From: Armatimonadota bacterium
GTDB lineage: Bacteria; Armatimonadota; Fimbriimonadia; Fimbriimonadales; Fimbriimonadaceae
Assembly (NCBI GenBank): GCA_017303935.1
Contig: JAFLBD010000002.1
Coordinates: forward strand, 310,001 to 374,000
Length of the DNA: 64,000 nt
Direction: 5' to 3'
Shown here: piece by piece, positions 37,909-46,242 of the stretch
Numbering within the stretch: position 1 is the first letter of the stretch
Layout: each line of letters starts with the position of its first letter
Program-made: the position numbers and the translations under genes
The notes under the pieces: model-generated
The model's database searches: none
What the model was told of the DNA's origin: nothing
Seen by the model: only the letters and a program-made list of their open reading frames with translations

Positions 37909-38418
37909 TTAAGGACATCCGGTTGGCGGTGGCGGCGGAGGACTGATCGTCCTATCCATGTAGATCGTTGGAAGAGTGTTCAGATTCCCCGCAGATAAAG
38001 CCGTGTAAGAAGCTCGGCATCCCGCGACGACGGATGAATACCACGATCCATTGAACCTGTACTCTTTGTATAACGTGGAAACAATTGTCGAACTGTCCAG
38101 CTGAAAACTCGCAGGAGTAGATCCAGGCGCAAAGTAGTACGCACCGCACGAGTTCGTCACGACGTTGCCGAGTTCGGTACCGCCGCTGTTATAGATTCTC
38201 ACCCTGACGTTGGGCACAACATTTCCGCCGAGCGTCAGCACGCGCCCACGGACTCGGGTTCCTGATCCTGTATCAGGCAGATCAGCATACGGATCGGAGC
38301 AAACGCCCGGTACGACACCGCCACCACCACCGCCTCCGCAGCCGATGACAACGAGCACCAATGCGGTGCTGAGCGCGCTGGCCAATAGTCCAGCTTTAAG
38401 ATTTCGATGGAGTTTCAT
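37909..38418 (-). CDS. Lipoprotein with Gly-rich linker and carboxypeptidase-regulatory-like domain
   Basis: The start at 38418 overlaps the cdd stop (ATGA), so it is coupled. The 169-residue protein has a lipobox VVIGC (Cys27) followed by a poly-glycine stretch. A beta-sandwich-like segment (about 55-100) has the CarboxypepD_reg pattern VRGRVLTLGGNVVPNVRVRIYN, then GAYYFAPG. The tail ends in poly-proline and a Cys. Such domains often act as surface display spacers. Function is unknown. Confidence 0.7.
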   Translation of the reverse strand: MKLHRNLKAGLLASALSTALVLVVIGCGGGGGGGVVPGVCSDPYADLPDTGSGTRVRGRVLTLGGNVVPNVRVRIYNSGGTELGNVVTNSCGAYYFAPGSTPASFQLDSSTIVSTLYKEYRFNGSWYSSVVAGCRASYTALSAGNLNTLPTIYMDRTISPPPPPPTGCP

Positions 38419-38813
38419 TTCAATTTGAATGCGTAGGGAAGGAGTTCTTGAATCGAATGCGAGAGCTTGTTGCCGTTCTCGTCGAAGCAATGGACAAACG
38501 CGGGTGCATCATCTGGTGCGAATTCAGAAAGGGTCTGGCGGCACATTCCGCAAGGCGAACCTGAATCTTTGGTCACAACAACGGCTTCGAGCCAGCGTTG
38601 GCATCCGTTTGCCACCATTGTCGAGATTGCGTTTCTCTCAGCACAAATCGCGAGGCCGTAACTGGCATTTTCGACGTTGCATCCGCTGTAAATCACGCCA
38701 TCTTCACCCAAGATTGCGCATCCGACTCGGTACTGGCTGTACGGAGCATAGGCGCGATTTCTTGACGTTTCAGCTGCTGCTAGCAGTTCATTTAAACGTG
38801 ACGATGGTAACAC
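38415..38813 (-). CDS. cdd: Cytidine deaminase
   Basis: A GTG at 38813 is preferred because AAGGAGG lies 5 nt upstream and the resulting 132 residues match the tetrameric cytidine deaminases; longer frames to 38840 and 38876 exist. Zinc and catalysis residues are present: C58-A-E60 and the PCGMC pair (C88, C91). It salvages cytidine and deoxycytidine to uridine forms. The start lies inside the mutS2 3' end (26-nt overlap). Confidence 0.93.
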   Translation of the reverse strand: MLPSSRLNELLAAAETSRNRAYAPYSQYRVGCAILGEDGVIYSGCNVENASYGLAICAERNAISTMVANGCQRWLEAVVVTKDSGSPCGMCRQTLSEFAPDDAPAFVHCFDENGNKLSHSIQELLPYAFKLK

Positions 38814-41127
38814 CGTGTCCTCCTTCGTTGGAATCTCCATCCCGGTAGTTTTGCACGCCTTTATGTCGCCGAACACAATTGCGGGTCATTTCCCGAAGAA
38901 TTCCTTCGCCCTTGCCGTGGACGATTCTCACGTTTTCGAGCCCAGCCAACAGACTTTCATCCAGGAAATTCTCGAGTAAGTGCTCCGCTTCTTCTGCGCG
39001 GACGCCTCGCATATCTAGTTCTGTATGCGCGGTCTGGGCCTTTTGCAAGATCACCCCTTTGCTCGCCTTCTGAATGACCTTTGTCGGCACAGGGACTTCG
39101 ACCGAGATCAGGTCCTCAAGGGCGATCTTCATTTTGGCGGGGCCAACTTGTACCGTAGCGCGACCGTCCTTTGGGTCGTCTAGGATCAACCCCTTTTGGT
39201 TGAGATTTCGAACCATCACGGTTTGTCCCTTGGCAATTCTTGCGGTTCCAGCTGCAGCTTGACTCTCTTCAGGTCGAACACGGTCCGCGACTTCGGCCCC
39301 TCGGCGCTGGAGTGTCTTGAGCTTCTCGCGAATATCATTTGTTGACGTAGCTCCTGCCTTTTTGATTTGCTCGAAAAGCTCCGCCGACTCCACCCGAATC
39401 CGCCGCATTTCTTCTTCAACTTCCGCCACGATCGCCTGCTTCGTTGTCTTTCGAATTCGCTCGGCTTCTTCCAGCGCTTTGGCGGCTCGCTTTTCCTCTT
39501 CGCGCAATTTGTGCGCGAGTCGATCAGCTTCGCTCTGAGCTTTTTGAGCTCGCTTCTGCGCGAGTTCCAACTGCTCCAGCATAGCGGCGATGTCTTTCTC
39601 TTCGACGCCTTGATCCGCTTGGGCAAGCTCGATCACGCGCTTCGGAAGGCCATTGCGCTCCGCGATTTTGAGCGCGTGGCTGCTCCCAGGAGTACCTTCG
39701 AGAAAGACGTATGTTGGCTTGAGCGACTTTTGGTCAAACTCCATCGAACAGTTCAGGAATCCTTCGGTATTCGCCGCGAACAGCTTCAACTCCCCATAGT
39801 GCGTGCTCGCGACGGTGATGGCTTTGCCGCGCTGAAGTTCGATCAACACCGCCCTTGCAAGGGCTGCGCCTTCCTGAGGGTCGGTTCCTGCGCCGACTTC
39901 GTCAAGCAAAACCAGCGCGTTGGGAGTTAAGGATCGTATCGCTTCCGCGATGTTTCGAATGTGCCCGCTGAAGGTCGACAGGGACTGTTGAAGGCTTTGT
40001 TCGTCGCCGATGTCTGCCCAAATTTGGCTGAACATCCCGATTTTTGTCCGGCTTGCGGGCACTGGAATTCCGCATTGGTTCATCGTCACAAACAGGCCAA
40101 CGGTCTTGAGGGTGACCGTCTTGCCGCCGGTATTAGGTCCCGTAATCAGTAGCGTAGTCACGTCGCCGCCAATCTGTAGCGAAAGCGGTACCGCTACCTG
40201 TTCATCGAGCAGCGGGTGTCGACCACGCTCGATTTTGATAAATCCAGGCGGTGCGCTTGCGGCAAGGTCTCCATTAAAACTGAATCCATATCGAGCCTTG
40301 GCCAGAATAAGGTCGAGCTTTCCCGCCGATTCAATGCCGACCGCAATTTGACCGCCGTTTGCGCCGATTCTCTCGCTCAAATTTCGGAGAATCCTGGCGA
40401 CTTCGGCAGCTTCCTGGGCTTCGGCCTGCCGAAGAGCGTTGCCGATCTCGTGGACGTCCATCGGCTCGATGTAGACCGTCTGCCCCGAGCTGCTGGAATC
40501 GTGCACGATCCCTTTGACTTTGGCGCGATGCTCCGACTTCACGGGCACCACATATCTGCCGTTGCGCTGAGTCACGATCGGGTCGCTCAGATAATCTCGC
40601 GCCGCGCCGGTGGTGTACTTATTGATTTTCTCAGTTAGGCGGTGAGTTGAATTTCGAATGTTCTTCCGAAGTCTGCCCAATTCTGGGGATGCCGAGTCGA
40701 GAACTTCTCCTCCAGAATCTAAGCTGTCGAAGATCGCGGTTACGGTTTTTGGGTCATCGAAAAACGTGGTGGAGAGCTCGTGTAGGTGTGGATGTTGGAA
40801 CGACTTTGACCTAAGGAGCTGTACCCATTGCCGCATGACGCTCATCGCAAAACCGATTTGGTAGAGCGTCAGGCCGTCTAAAGTGCCGCCTTTGCTCGCC
40901 TTGATGCAGGCCTGGCGAACGTCGTGGATACCCCCAAGGGGCGGCAACAGATCACCATTTGCCAGTTCGATTGCCTCGGACGTTTCGGCTTTTCTCGTTT
41001 CGACGACTTTGGGATCGAAGCTCGGCAAGAGTTCTGAGGCGAACGCGCGACCAAGCATCGATTCGCAATGATCTGCTAATCGAGCCTGAATATTTTCAAA
41101 TTCCAGAACCTTTAGAGCGTGTTCCAC
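38788..41127 (-). CDS. mutS2: Endonuclease MutS2 (ribosome-rescue/recombination-suppressing ATPase)
   Basis: The 779-residue protein has the MutS2 architecture. An N-terminal lever/clamp region is followed by the ATPase core with ITGPNTGGKTVTLKTVGL (Walker A, about 330) and LVLLDEVGAGTDPQEGAAL (Walker B and signature). A long coiled coil (about 515-610) is rich in Glu, Lys and Arg. The C-terminal Smr domain (about 705-779) carries LDMRGVRAEEAEHLLENFLD and the HGKGEG motif. MutS2 suppresses recombination and, in Bacillus, splits collided ribosomes. cdd follows as an overlapping gene. Confidence 0.96.
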   Translation of the reverse strand: MEHALKVLEFENIQARLADHCESMLGRAFASELLPSFDPKVVETRKAETSEAIELANGDLLPPLGGIHDVRQACIKASKGGTLDGLTLYQIGFAMSVMRQWVQLLRSKSFQHPHLHELSTTFFDDPKTVTAIFDSLDSGGEVLDSASPELGRLRKNIRNSTHRLTEKINKYTTGAARDYLSDPIVTQRNGRYVVPVKSEHRAKVKGIVHDSSSSGQTVYIEPMDVHEIGNALRQAEAQEAAEVARILRNLSERIGANGGQIAVGIESAGKLDLILAKARYGFSFNGDLAASAPPGFIKIERGRHPLLDEQVAVPLSLQIGGDVTTLLITGPNTGGKTVTLKTVGLFVTMNQCGIPVPASRTKIGMFSQIWADIGDEQSLQQSLSTFSGHIRNIAEAIRSLTPNALVLLDEVGAGTDPQEGAALARAVLIELQRGKAITVASTHYGELKLFAANTEGFLNCSMEFDQKSLKPTYVFLEGTPGSSHALKIAERNGLPKRVIELAQADQGVEEKDIAAMLEQLELAQKRAQKAQSEADRLAHKLREEEKRAAKALEEAERIRKTTKQAIVAEVEEEMRRIRVESAELFEQIKKAGATSTNDIREKLKTLQRRGAEVADRVRPEESQAAAGTARIAKGQTVMVRNLNQKGLILDDPKDGRATVQVGPAKMKIALEDLISVEVPVPTKVIQKASKGVILQKAQTAHTELDMRGVRAEEAEHLLENFLDESLLAGLENVRIVHGKGEGILREMTRNCVRRHKGVQNYRDGDSNEGGHGVTIVTFK

Positions 41128-41205
41128 CAGTACTGCAATTGTATCGCGTGTTCGCCCACAGTGACTTTTCTTGGGCTATGATCATGCAATCAAGAGGGGA
41201 ACAAT

Positions 41206-42498
41206 TTGATTACCAGAAAGCAAATTCTGCTGTTCTGCGGCATGGCATTGGCTTCTTCGTCTCTGGCGCAAACCGAGGGGGTTGCGCTAGTAGGTGCTCG
41301 GATCGAAACCGGCACTGGTCAGACGATTGAGTCCGGAACTGTCGCGTTTAAAGACAACAAAATCGTTTATGTCGGCACGGGCAATGCGCCTGCCGGGTTC
41401 AAAAAAGTCGACGCGAAAGGGATGACTGTTTATCCCGGATTCATCGACGGGTGCATGACACGGGGCTATAAACTGCCCGAAGTTCCGCAAAATCCGCCGC
41501 TAGACGTGGTCACTACCGCACCACCCACCATGCGCGAACTGAATCGCAAGGGCGTGTGGCCTGATCTCGATCTTTCGAAAAATCTGGACCTTAAATCGGC
41601 GGTTGGAGCGGCAAATGAGGCAGGTTTCACCTGCGCAGTCATCGCCAATGCTGCCGGTACCTTCCGAGGACAGTCTTGCCTTGTCAACCTTTCGGGCAGC
41701 AAGGATGTTCCAGTCCTTCTTCAGCCCAAAGTCGCCCAAGTTACCGGACTGGGGACTGGGCCACAATCTGGGTATCCGACCACCCCATTCGCGATCATGG
41801 CAACCTACCGTCAGACGATGCTGGACGCGCAGCGAATGCTGCAGACGCCTTCTGCAGACAGGCCGAAGAATCTAGAACCGCTAGAATCGCTGTTCCCCGT
41901 CCTTCGCGGCGAGCAACCGCTGATGTTCTTCGCGGACGGTGAGCGAGATATTTCTCGCGCGCTCGGCTTGGTCGATGAGTTCGGCTCAAAGGCCATGCTA
42001 GTAGGTGCCAAGAACGGATTTATGCGGCTGGATGAGATCAAAAGATCCGGACTTCCGGTCCTCGCGAACATCGCCATCGGGATCGCGCCAACCAAGTCAA
42101 ATGACCCCGATTTGATCCTTCCAAAGGACGTTTTCAACGAACGCGCCGAGGACTGGAAGAAGCGATCAGAGAATCTTCTCAGGTTCAAGGAAGCAGGGAT
42201 TCCGTTTGCAATCACGAGTATGGGGGATGGGAGTTCGAACTTCTTGACCAATATCCGCCGAATTCTCAAAACAGGGCTGGATTGGAAGACGGTTTTGCAA
42301 GCAGTCACGTTGATGCCCGCAAAACTATTTGGAGTCGACAAGCAGATGGGTTCAATTGAAGTCGGAAAGCAAGCGTATTTCACGATCGCAAACGGTGATC
42401 TGAGCAAGGACAAAGTCACCATCAAGTACGTGGTCGTCGCGGGACAATTGCGCGATATTGATGCACCGATGGATGAAGAAGAGGAGGCAAAGCCATGA
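41206..42498 (+). CDS. Secreted amidohydrolase-like protein lacking the metal-binding HxH motif
   Basis: The start is a TTG with AGAGGGGA upstream. A signal peptide (1-21) gives export. The 430-residue protein has the composite-barrel pattern of imidazolonepropionase-like amidohydrolases: a small N-terminal beta-barrel with a GARIETGTGQTIESGTVAF strand set, then VYPGFIDGC and a C-terminal SIEVGKQAYFTIANGD. The HxH after GFID is absent (GFIDGCMTR), and the final catalytic Asp region reads TSMGDGSS. It probably does not bind metal in the usual way. It is coupled to the next amidohydrolase (4-nt overlap). Confidence 0.75.
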   Translation: MITRKQILLFCGMALASSSLAQTEGVALVGARIETGTGQTIESGTVAFKDNKIVYVGTGNAPAGFKKVDAKGMTVYPGFIDGCMTRGYKLPEVPQNPPLDVVTTAPPTMRELNRKGVWPDLDLSKNLDLKSAVGAANEAGFTCAVIANAAGTFRGQSCLVNLSGSKDVPVLLQPKVAQVTGLGTGPQSGYPTTPFAIMATYRQTMLDAQRMLQTPSADRPKNLEPLESLFPVLRGEQPLMFFADGERDISRALGLVDEFGSKAMLVGAKNGFMRLDEIKRSGLPVLANIAIGIAPTKSNDPDLILPKDVFNERAEDWKKRSENLLRFKEAGIPFAITSMGDGSSNFLTNIRRILKTGLDWKTVLQAVTLMPAKLFGVDKQMGSIEVGKQAYFTIANGDLSKDKVTIKYVVVAGQLRDIDAPMDEEEEAKP

Positions 42499-45209
42499 AG
42501 AGCGGATTAGTGTTGATGGCGCTCGTCGTTGCCGGAATCGCCGGTGCGCAAGAGTACCGATTCCCCTATGAATCGGAAGCGGATCGCGCCCCGAAGATCA
42601 AAACAACCGGCAACTGTTTGATCCATGCTGGGCGTGTGATTACGGTGTCGGGAGAAACTCTCAAGGACGCCGAGATTCAGGTCGCCGATGGCAAGATCGT
42701 GTACCTGGGCGCCCCACGACCATTCATCAAATACGCGGGGCCGGTCATTGATGCGTCGGACCAAGTGGTCATGCCTGGAATCGTGGACGCCCACATTCAC
42801 CGAGGTATTGATGCTACCAACGAAGGCGCGGATGCGATCACGATCGAAGTTCGGATCGCAGACATGCTCGATCCGGACGATGTCACATGGTGGCAAGCCC
42901 TCGCCAGCGGCGAAACATCGGGAATGGCATTGCACGGCAGTGCGAATCCAATTGGTGGGCAGAGCCAAGTCATCAAGTTCAAATACAAGCACTCAGTCAA
43001 GGAGTCCATGGTTGCCGATGCGCCGCGCATGGTGAAGTTCGCACTGGGTGAAAACGTGACCCGTGCCAGCAGTTCTCAGCCCTCGACCCGTTTCCCGGCC
43101 ACTCGCATGGGACAAGAAGCGGTCTACCGGAGAGCATTTGAATCGGCAAAAACCTACATGGCAGGTTGGGATCGATGGAATCGTAGCGATCGAAAGACCC
43201 CTCCGCCAAGAAAGGACTTACGACTCGAAGCGCTCAGCGATGTCCTGCGCCGCAAGATCTGGGTGATGTGCCACAGCTACCGCGCGGACGAGATTCTGAT
43301 GATGGCCCGGCTGAGCAAGGAATATGGGTTCAAAATCGGCGCGATGCAGCACGCTTTGGAGGCTTACAAAGTCGCACCAGAGCTGGCCGAAATGGGAGTC
43401 CCAGTTTCCATGTTCCAGGACAATTGGTCGTTCAAATTGGAAGGCTATGATGCGATTCCGGCGGGACCAGCGATCTGCTACAAAGCGGGAGTGCTGACTT
43501 CAATCAACACCGACGGTACATCAGGCACCACCGCGCTGATCTACGACGCGGCGCGGCTGGTTCGTGAAGGGTTGACCGAGAACGAAGCACTTCGCACGGT
43601 AACTCTCAATCCAGCCAAACAAATGGGTATCGGTCACCGAGTGGGTTCGATCGAAGTCGGCAAAGACGCGGATTTGGTGTTCTATTCGGGGCATCCGTTC
43701 AACGCCAACAGCAAAGTGAACTTGACGATGATTGAAGGTGAAGTTCTGTTCACTCGTCGTGATAAGTTCAATATCGACGGTGTGGTCAAGCCAAAGCTCG
43801 ATTACGAAGCACCGGACCAAGCTCCATTTGAACCTAAAGCCGAGGGTTCAAAGATCGCGTTAGTCGGAGGAATGATCTTCCCCGTGGATCGCCCGATGAT
43901 CGAAAGCGGAACGGTCCTGATCTCGGAAGGCAAGATCGAGTCTGTCATGCCCGGATCGACGGTCCCACGAGGTTATGAGCGGGTCAACATCAAGGGCAAG
44001 CGGGTCTACCCTGGGTTCTTCGACTGCAGTTCGCTGCTCGGACTGAGCGAAATTTCTCCTGTCAGCGTGAGCTTGGATGTCACCGACAACGGTGATTTCC
44101 AACCAGATCTGAAGGCAGCGACCGCAGTCCAAAGCGAGAGTGCTCACTTCGGACCGGCGATGTGCAACGGAATCTTGACTGCAGTGGTCCGGCCTGCCGG
44201 TGGTCTGGTGCCAGGTCGAGCTGGAATTGTGAATACCTGGGGTTGGAATACCCAGCTCCGCACCATCAGCTCGGACTTCGCGATGGTTGTGAACGTGCCT
44301 AGCGTGGGTGGATTCAGAGGCGGCCCTAGAAAGCAAGCCTGCGCATGCATGGGACTTTCGATCGAAGACATCTTGGACGGAGTGACAGAGCACGATCACG
44401 AAGCTGAAGAAGCCGAATTCCAGAAGGCTTTGCAAGGCCCGATGGCGGCACCGCAAAATCAAGAGACGCCGAATCGGCGACAGCAAGGGGAGGCTCCGCC
44501 GAACATCACGGGACGGATGAAGCAATTGGAAGACTATTTCCAGTCCGTACGTGATTACATCGAGAACCGCAAGAAGGATCCGATCAAGACTCCGCTCAGT
44601 CTCCAGATGGAGGCGATGATTCCGGTCGTGGAAGGCAAGACGCCAATCCTGATGCGGGTCCGCACGTCGAAGTCCATCCTGACTGCGATTGATTTCTGCA
44701 AGCGAAACAAGCTGAAGGGGATTCTTTCGGGCGCGGCAGAAGGTTGGAAGGTGCTCCCAGAAATCAAGAAATCTGGGATGCCAGTGCTGATCACTCCTGC
44801 GGGAGAATCGCCGCTGGACGCCAACTCGCCAGTGAATAGCTACGATCCGTATGACTCGCCGTACATCATGCCGACGATGCTCGGACGCGCGGGGATCAAG
44901 TTTGCGTTCCAAAGCGAGGACAACGCAATGACGATGGATATGGTCGTTCGAGCCGGAATGGCCCAAGGTTACGGACTATCCAACGAAACTGCGATTCGCG
45001 CCCTGACCTTGAATGCCGCCGAGATTCTCGGGTTACAAGATCACCTGGGGTCTCTGACCGAAGGCAAAGACGCTACCTTGATCGTCACCAACGGTGACCC
45101 ATTGGAGTGCAAAACTTCAGTTCAGATGGTGATGCTGAAGGGCAAGCAGGTCGAGATGGTGAGCAAGCACACGATGCTTCGCGATAAGTACGCCGCCCGA
45201 CTGAAATAG
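42495..45209 (+). CDS. Secreted double-domain amidohydrolase, N-half active-like, C-half degenerate
   Basis: A signal peptide (1-18) precedes two amidohydrolase domains in 904 residues. Domain 1 (about 40-435) keeps the metal ligands: H100 and H102 (DAHIH), H260 (MCHSY), H286 (MQHAL) and D340 (NTDG). Domain 2 (about 460-895) is a paralogue, related to the 41206 protein, whose VYPGFFDCSS lacks HxH. Both ends carry the GSIEVGKDADLVF or GSLTEGKDATLIV closing strands. The pair of genes may form a periplasmic complex of one active and two inactive domains. The substrate is unknown (cyclic amide or peptide possible). Confidence 0.85.
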   Translation: MKSGLVLMALVVAGIAGAQEYRFPYESEADRAPKIKTTGNCLIHAGRVITVSGETLKDAEIQVADGKIVYLGAPRPFIKYAGPVIDASDQVVMPGIVDAHIHRGIDATNEGADAITIEVRIADMLDPDDVTWWQALASGETSGMALHGSANPIGGQSQVIKFKYKHSVKESMVADAPRMVKFALGENVTRASSSQPSTRFPATRMGQEAVYRRAFESAKTYMAGWDRWNRSDRKTPPPRKDLRLEALSDVLRRKIWVMCHSYRADEILMMARLSKEYGFKIGAMQHALEAYKVAPELAEMGVPVSMFQDNWSFKLEGYDAIPAGPAICYKAGVLTSINTDGTSGTTALIYDAARLVREGLTENEALRTVTLNPAKQMGIGHRVGSIEVGKDADLVFYSGHPFNANSKVNLTMIEGEVLFTRRDKFNIDGVVKPKLDYEAPDQAPFEPKAEGSKIALVGGMIFPVDRPMIESGTVLISEGKIESVMPGSTVPRGYERVNIKGKRVYPGFFDCSSLLGLSEISPVSVSLDVTDNGDFQPDLKAATAVQSESAHFGPAMCNGILTAVVRPAGGLVPGRAGIVNTWGWNTQLRTISSDFAMVVNVPSVGGFRGGPRKQACACMGLSIEDILDGVTEHDHEAEEAEFQKALQGPMAAPQNQETPNRRQQGEAPPNITGRMKQLEDYFQSVRDYIENRKKDPIKTPLSLQMEAMIPVVEGKTPILMRVRTSKSILTAIDFCKRNKLKGILSGAAEGWKVLPEIKKSGMPVLITPAGESPLDANSPVNSYDPYDSPYIMPTMLGRAGIKFAFQSEDNAMTMDMVVRAGMAQGYGLSNETAIRALTLNAAEILGLQDHLGSLTEGKDATLIVTNGDPLECKTSVQMVMLKGKQVEMVSKHTMLRDKYAARLK

Positions 45210-45210
45210 C

Positions 45211-46242
45211 TCACCGCTTGGGTTGAAGCTCCTTGATGGACTTCAACCCAAGCTTGTCACACTCAGAAAGAAGCTCAAGAAGCATCTTGGGCACAGTGCT
45301 CGGCCCACCATAAACCCAGCCGGTGTAGATTTGCACCAAGTCCGCCCCGAGCCGCAGCTTCTCGATCACATCCGATCCATTAAACACGCCGCCAACGCCG
45401 ATGAGGACTTTGCCGGCCGGCAGTTCTGCGCGAAGTAGCCGAATCACATCGTTGGCCCTCGTTTTCAATGGCGCACCGCTGATACCTCCAGCTTCATTCC
45501 AATCGCGTTTCAGGACCGCCCTGTCGATAGTGGTATTCGTCGCGATCAGGCCAGCTACGGGCAACTCGGCGGTCATGTGAGCGATTTCAATTAGATCGGC
45601 GTCGTCAAGATCTGGCGCAATCTTGATTAGGATCGGAGGATCGGACTCGGCGGGTGCCATCGCGTCCAAGATTGTTCGGAGTGATTCGAGTTGTTGAAGC
45701 TCTCGCAATCCCGGGGTATTCGGCGAACTCACGTTGATGACCACGTAACTCGCAAACTGCTTAAGCGCGGCAAAGCTGGCGGCGTAGTCTGCCCCGGCTT
45801 CATCGAGCGGGGTGATTTTAGATTTGCCGAGATTGATTCCCAACGGGATTTTTGGTGAAGAATGCGCAAGGCGTGCCGCCACGGCCGCAGCACCTTGATT
45901 GTTGAAGCCCATTCTGTTGACCACCGCCCTTTCTTCGGGGATGCGGAACAGCCGTGGCTTCGGATTACCAGGCTGACCGTGCCGTGTGATGGTGCCGATT
46001 TCTGCGAATCCAAACCCGAGTTGGTGCCAGTGGTTCACCACCACCGCGTTCTTGTCCATCCCCGCCGCAAGCCCAATGGGATTTGCAAAGTTGATGCCCA
46101 TCGCTTCAGTCCGCAACCGTGGATCGTTGACAAGTTTTGTCCGAACCAATCCTCCCGCAACTGTTGCAAGTCCTAAGTTATGGGCGGATTCTGCATCCAT
46201 CCGAAACAGAATTTTGCGAAGAAGCGATTCGTATGCGCTCAA
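45211..46242 (-). CDS. pyrD: Dihydroorotate dehydrogenase, class 2 (quinone-dependent)
   Basis: The 343-residue protein has class 2 DHODH features. The N-terminal helical membrane-association region (about 1-35) is followed by GINFANPIGLAAGMDKNA, EIGTITRHGQPGNPKPRLFR, NVSSPNTPGLRELQ (catalytic Ser), and the FMN phosphate-binding IGVGGVFNGSD. It oxidises dihydroorotate in pyrimidine synthesis, passing electrons to quinone, here presumably menaquinone. crcB is 3 nt upstream on the same strand. Confidence 0.95.
   Translation of the reverse strand: MSAYESLLRKILFRMDAESAHNLGLATVAGGLVRTKLVNDPRLRTEAMGINFANPIGLAAGMDKNAVVVNHWHQLGFGFAEIGTITRHGQPGNPKPRLFRIPEERAVVNRMGFNNQGAAAVAARLAHSSPKIPLGINLGKSKITPLDEAGADYAASFAALKQFASYVVINVSSPNTPGLRELQQLESLRTILDAMAPAESDPPILIKIAPDLDDADLIEIAHMTAELPVAGLIATNTTIDRAVLKRDWNEAGGISGAPLKTRANDVIRLLRAELPAGKVLIGVGGVFNGSDVIEKLRLGADLVQIYTGWVYGGPSTVPKMLLELLSECDKLGLKSIKELQPKR

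Follow-up and report, generated by a model that had tools for sequence, protein, structure and literature searches.

Two adjacent genes in a 64,000-nucleotide stretch of an Armatimonadota genome (assembly GCA_017303935.1, contig JAFLBD010000002.1, positions 310,001 to 374,000; the whole stretch is hereafter called the window) encode three barrels of the amidohydrolase fold, predicted to be exported, of which one retains its metal ligands and two have lost them. Gene A encodes a dead barrel (A), and gene B encodes a live barrel (B1) followed by a second dead one (B2). We consider it probable that the three are subunits of one periplasmic enzyme, in which the ligand-less, fold-keeping A and B2 stabilize the live B1 and complete or gate its entrance. 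B1 would be the sole catalytic barrel, a TM0814-like amidohydrolase, and A and B2 would be paralogous barrels of ancient origin, with all metal ligands lost and the fold retained. Packed on B1 as the models predict, the two would serve as fixed partners that stabilize it and shape, complete, or gate the active-site entrance, by analogy with the dead half of M16 peptidases. The complex would be obligate, with B1 activated by its dead partners, and the substrate may be peptide-like or N-acyl-amino-acid-like. The dead-live-dead trio is kept together, often fused, in many distant bacteria, which suggests that the enzyme may need its inactive siblings to work.

The original prediction had placed two open reading frames here, and both were confirmed; gene A starts with TTG at 41206, and the start of gene B overlaps the end of gene A by 4 bases (ATGA). 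The features of the pair are as follows.

41193..41199, plus strand: Shine-Dalgarno-like run AGAGGGG ahead of the TTG start of gene A, from the sequence
41206..42498, plus strand: gene A, a 430-residue exported pseudoenzyme of the amidohydrolase fold, without metal ligands and without histidine
41206..41268, plus strand: putative signal peptide of A, residues 1-21, cut before Q22, from the sequence by a family-wide heuristic
41434..41460, plus strand: degenerate beta-1 motif PGFIDGCMT of A (residues 77-85), equivalent to PGIVDAHIH of B1
42495..45209, plus strand: gene B, a 904-residue exported two-barrel protein, B1 live and B2 dead
42495..42548, plus strand: putative signal peptide of B, residues 1-18, cut before Q19, from the sequence
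42612..43763, plus strand: B1, predicted catalytic amidohydrolase barrel, residues 40-423; closest solved relative 3ooq (Z 45.2)
42774..42800, plus strand: PGIVDAHIH of B1, with the HxH metal ligands H100 and H102
42930..42959, plus strand: LHGSANPIGG of B1, containing H147
43032..43055, plus strand: VKFALGEN of B1, with K181 on strand beta-4, a candidate carboxylated-lysine bridging ligand, and E186
43266..43292, plus strand: MCHSYRADE of B1, with ligand H260
43344..43370, plus strand: MQHALEAYK of B1, with ligand H286
43500..43517, plus strand: SINTDG of B1, with D340 at the ligand/general base position
43851..45203, plus strand: B2, pseudoenzyme amidohydrolase barrel, residues 453-903, ligands lost
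44010..44033, plus strand: PGFFDCSS of B2 (residues 506-513), equivalent to PGIVDAHIH of B1
44310..44489, plus strand: low-confidence (disordered) insert of B2, residues 606-665, with CxC (ACAC, 615-618) and HDH (633-635)

The claim that only the first domain of the 904-residue protein keeps the metal ligands H100, H102, H260, H286, and D340 was borne out, as all five lie within B1 and none in B2, which has no HxH and whose histidines fall at none of the ligand positions. The 430-residue protein and the second domain had been said to carry GFID and GFFD without HxH, and these are seen within PGFIDGCMT and PGFFDCSS, respectively; a sixth candidate ligand, K181, had been overlooked. All six ligands were present in 134 of 135 B1 domains, in none of 124 A, and in none of 129 B2, the single B1 row that falls short having an unread X at K181. 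A shift of up to three residues was tolerated in this recount, since the joint alignment is mostly gaps in the H286 columns of A and B2 and in the D340 column of B2; 17 B1-like domains of loci L108, L127, and L128 (tandem arrays and one pair) were left out of the ligand counts. HxH alone was found in 135/135 B1, 0/124 A, and 1/129 B2. Because the division into dead and live domains is family-wide, it is not due to chance. The lone HxH-bearing B2, from a member of the Planctomycetaceae (L144:2878-4359), keeps HSH (IEAHSH) at beta-1, possibly a vestige of a live ancestor.

K181 falls within the fourth predicted barrel strand of B1 (residues 178-183, numbered 159-164 in the model) and is kept in all 11 live members of the sister pairs described below and in both solo live members; no A or B2 has it at that column. 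A lysine at this strand in the amidohydrolase superfamily forms the carboxylated bridge of a binuclear center, and the putative metal center of B1 (H100, H102, K181, H260, H286, and D340) is probably binuclear. H147 of LHGSAN is invariant in B1 of the triads (135/135), but both solo members and 10 of the 11 live pair members have P in its place; thus, judging by sequence, B1 of the triads looks like a distinct active-site type.

In A and B2 the conserved residues are mostly glycines, and the positions of the former ligands are occupied by widely differing residues. A common ligand pocket would not be expected to leave such variety, which weighs against the idea that A and B2 are sensors whose old pockets bind substrate, product, or a cell-wall fragment and thereby turn B1 on or off, with regulation as the purpose of the complex. 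The beta-1 region is nevertheless among the most conserved parts of B2 (G516, E519, D528, and the D531 column), HDQDQ is kept in the beta-1 loop of 10 of 11 aligned dead pair members, and sensing is common among pseudoenzymes according to the review PMC11266112. Constitutive fusion into one chain suits a structural part better, and we regard the sensor role as unlikely; a structural or active-site-completing role is, we think, likelier than a regulatory one. That A or B2 is instead alive, with a new metal-free or differently liganded chemistry, strikes us as very improbable. Retention of both over phylum-scale time and a Cys/His/acid-rich B2 insert in part of the family would speak for such chemistry; however, they have not kept a single one of the six ligand positions in common, histidine is absent from A of the window, and the conserved residues are mostly glycines.

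Co-occurrence was counted in surveys of two phyla, which provide the unbiased counts. Among 118 evenly drawn Bacteroidota genomes, 65 carried B1 and the identical 65 carried A and B2, at limits (>480 bits for B1, >250 for A, and >280 for B2) that were chosen after the score gaps had been seen. A lies directly upstream of all 66 B1 genes in these genomes and B2 directly downstream of 58, the other eight having B2 elsewhere in the genome. An apparent exception, G267, whose 2,531-residue frame covers A and a portion of B1, with no B2 at an E value of ≤1e-70, is explained by a stretch of Ns interrupting the contig and was left out of the 65. In 79 Planctomycetota genomes, B1 was found in 26 (E ≤ 1e-110), and the first limits gave A in 20 and B2 in 21, with neither A nor B2 in the genomes outside the 26. 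The apparent losses (five without B2 and six without A, G390 being counted in both) disappeared on inspection, the domains being split or below the cutoff, leaving 24 full triads and two genomes with live-dead pairs only (G397 and G429). A is on a different contig from B1 and B2 in G395 and was recognized only in part in G390. The absence of any loss in 65/65 Bacteroidota and 24/24 Planctomycetota triad genomes, together with a fold that is intact in the models, makes it hardly credible that A and B2 are decaying duplicates without significance, in spite of their lost ligands and faster evolution.

The arrangement of a dead A, a live B1, and a dead B2, in that order, was found in ten named phyla according to the record labels. 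These come from a scan of named genomes with the B1 alignment, from which the best 80 of at least 590 relatives were taken, a sample biased to close relatives, and comprise Acidobacteriota, Planctomycetota, Gemmatimonadota, Bacteroidota, Balneolota, Verrucomicrobiota, Krumholzibacteriota, Aminicenantota, Fidelibacterota, and one bin labeled Actinomycetota. A is upstream of B1 in 78 of the 80 loci, B1 lying at the end of a contig or close to it in the remaining two (L160 and L189), and B2 is downstream in 78, with L208 cut by the end of the stretch and the genome of L180 carrying B2 on another contig. Within the phylum of the window, 77 and 73 of 251 genomes match B and A, respectively, at E ≤ 1e-10, some of these matches being more distant pair-type or solo relatives; the 60 regions analyzed from this phylum were chosen by us from these matches.

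Four layouts occur: three separate genes, A with a B1-B2 chain (as in the window), an A-B1 chain with B2, and a single A-B1-B2 chain in frames of roughly 1,250 to 1,600 codons. Singulisphaera acidiphila DSM 18658 (L162) has the single chain, in a frame of 1,479 codons, and Roseivirga ehrenbergii is another culturable carrier of the family. Among the 135 B1 rows, 41 are unfused, 40 are B1-B2, 21 are A-B1, and 33 are A-B1-B2. On a B1 tree of these rows (quick search), at least 14 layout changes are needed, at least seven for the A-B1 join and at least nine for the B1-B2 join, each of which may be the gain or the splitting of a join. No A-B2 chain without B1 was present among the 274 open reading frames tabulated. 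The original prediction had proposed conservation of the pair across genomes as a check; gene order is kept, fusions recur, co-occurrence is strict, and the ligand pattern holds family-wide. The earlier observation was right and understated.

Physical association was approached through AlphaFold models of two chains, each holding two domains. The B1-B2 chain of the window gave a mean predicted local distance difference test score (pLDDT) of 90.1 and a predicted template modeling score (pTM) of 0.90 (72 sequences), and a natural A-B1 fusion from a relative (L195) gave 86.4 and 0.88, respectively (50 sequences). We read such a pTM for two equal domains as indicating a defined relative placement in the models. 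A stretch of the signal-peptide type, called by a simple hydropathy rule rather than a trained predictor, was found in 72/73 A, 40/41 B1, and 60/60 B2 encoded separately, as well as in 39/40 B1-B2, 20/20 A-B1, and 30/31 A-B1-B2 chains. Each separately encoded subunit thus has its own signal, and the subunits would therefore meet outside the cytoplasm. The three might be cotranscribed and functionally linked without physical association, a reading for which A as a separate gene in the window and the unlinked B2 of part of the genomes could be cited; set against it are the joins gained or split repeatedly on either side of B1 and the confident packing of the two two-domain models, and we give it only a slim chance. 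Of the regulatory or structural role in a periplasmic complex that had been proposed earlier, the complex is well supported, although indirectly, by recurrent fusions, all-or-none co-occurrence, export signals, and the two-domain models; of the two roles, the structural one is in our view the likelier.

On a tree of all domains (quick search), each of the three domain types is set apart by a branch of its own (support of 100 for A, 100 for B1, and 99 for B2), A and B2 lie together, and a branch with support of 97 (95 in the tree with outgroups) separates every live group from every dead one, the latter comprising A, B2, and the dead sister-pair members. The tree, which is unrooted, would agree with one ancient loss of activity and later duplication. 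Four amidohydrolases from the genome of the window gave no usable root, as two of their long branches joined each other and the other two fell among A and B2. The sister pairs were found at 14 loci (L210-L220, L224, L225, and L128), of which 11 were placed on the tree; in all 14 a live member of about 440 residues is followed by a dead partner, and in Singulisphaera (L216) the two are fused into one chain. Four more Planctomycetota pairs (L237-L240) have a B2-like partner and no A. As these pairs also combine a live and a dead member, coupling of this kind is frequent in this part of the superfamily, and the triad has the appearance of an elaborated pair.

Separately, three contigs (L108, L127, and L226) carry tandem runs of about seven to nine TM0814-like amidohydrolase genes each, in which HxH-bearing and HxH-less members are mixed. 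By the pattern table, HHHHD is present in three of the 17 domains left out of the ligand counts; the row list shows it in L128 and twice in L108.

Both proteins match the amidohydrolase family PF01979 (A with 44.1 bits and B with 107.8 bits over two stretches; cutoff, 25), and A, B1, and B2 each exceed this cutoff separately. Their other Pfam matches are amidohydrolase families and a weak NagA_N match below its own cutoff; an M16 peptidase domain is absent among the Pfam matches of A and B. The ligand set of catalytic members (HxH, in some cases K, H, H, and D) is present in B1 and absent from A and B2, and the fold of a barrel plus a small beta domain was recovered in the models of B1 and B2 on comparison with solved amidohydrolases. 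No NCBIfam equivalog cutoff was reached among the 25 families listed per protein (of 38 and 71), the dihydroorotase model pyrC_multi, for example, giving 42 bits against a cutoff of 279; therefore, no substrate can be assigned by name.

B1 belongs to the group of 3ooq, which we take to be locus TM0814 of Thermotoga maritima, as both sequence and fold match it well above other amidohydrolases. The sequence search gave an E value of 1.2e-57 (next match, 9.8e-13), and the B1 model aligned to 3ooq over 372 residues with 37% identity, a root mean square deviation of 2.0, and a Z of 45.2 (next, 25.7); the B1 part of the L195 model reached a Z of 49.3. The solved amidohydrolase 3ooq, whose entry title gives no function, shares the motifs GSAN-GG, K-A-GEN, and H-R-D with B1. 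Unlike B1, it is a single-domain protein with P at the position of the H147 that is invariant in triads, and we know of no dead partner for it. The best structural neighbors after 3ooq, with a Z of about 24 to 26, are the prolidase, Xaa-Pro dipeptidase, and arginine carboxypeptidase group (3feq, 3n2c, 2qs8, and 3be7), which has the same fold but an identity of only about 14 to 22%, with no equivalog cutoff passed; the B2 model matched prolidase-type barrels with a Z of 25.7.

The AlphaFold model leaves the B2 insert of the window (residues 606-665) disordered. Inserts of at least 45 residues were found in 28 of 129 B2s, 26 of them in the phylum of the window, and 18 of the 28 contain HxH or HH (8 of 488 control stretches) and 12 contain a close Cys pair (0 of 488). 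That the insert is a metal-holding loop is a guess. A more elaborate scheme, in which A and B2 border the entrance of B1 to make a composite active site and the disordered Cys/His/acid-rich insert hands metal to the binuclear center of B1 in the periplasm, in a part of the family that includes the window, is in our view quite doubtful.

Several observations weigh against the single enzyme with two inactive subunits that we favor. B2 is unlinked in the eight Bacteroidota cases given above, and several genomes from the order to which the window belongs (L100-L105) have A-B1 as one chain and B2 unlinked, yet kept. The end branch of A of the window is long (1.2, compared with 0.99 for B2 and 0.51 for B1), indicating fast evolution. 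Two solo live members have no nearby partner (L221 and L222), and therefore the fold itself can act alone. The interface was judged from pTM alone, and the A-B1 model is that of a relative's fusion, not of A and B1 of the window. Finally, both the activation of B1 by A and B2 and the substrate are purely inferred.

The genes flanking A and B are on the minus strand (38415-41127 and 45211-46242) and are presumably, by their sequences, cytidine-deaminase-like and mutS2-like genes upstream and a pyrD-like (dihydroorotate dehydrogenase) gene downstream. Pyrimidine genes on both flanks are probably a coincidence, because no neighbor family is conserved: clustering of 830 flanking open reading frames gave none present in more than 9 of 141 loci. 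Thus, the trio stands alone, and the flanking genes give no function.

No description of the A-B1-B2 trio was found in the open-licence literature searched, in part with loose terms. In M16 peptidases, PMC11266112 describes an inactive half, on a separate chain or fused, as essential, and PMC12731061 likewise describes live and dead paralogous halves, in two chains or fused, as both needed. The trio resembles them (e.g., mitochondrial processing peptidase, with an inactive alpha and an active beta subunit) in combining live and dead paralogous halves that are separate or fused. It differs in its unrelated fold and motif and in having two dead parts where they have one, and dependence on the dead part is here inferred. 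In Pseudomonas aeruginosa aspartate transcarbamoylase (ATCase), an inactive dihydroorotase homologue is necessary for its partner (PMC7053772). This is the closest precedent involving a pseudoenzyme of the amidohydrolase fold; there, however, the partner is an unrelated transcarbamoylase, whereas in the trio the dead barrels accompany a live paralogue and every part is predicted to be exported. The trio belongs to neither the M16 peptidases nor the ATCase pseudo-dihydroorotase family, with M16 as the nearest working analogy. If our interpretation is true, it represents a separate invention of a live-plus-dead metalloenzyme assembly within the amidohydrolase superfamily, exported and present in ten named phyla. 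Because the set occurs as three, two, and one chain, it would offer an unusually clean system for the question of how a pseudoenzyme acts on its live paralogue and, compared with M16, would bring two dead subunits per live one in a new branch of the superfamily.

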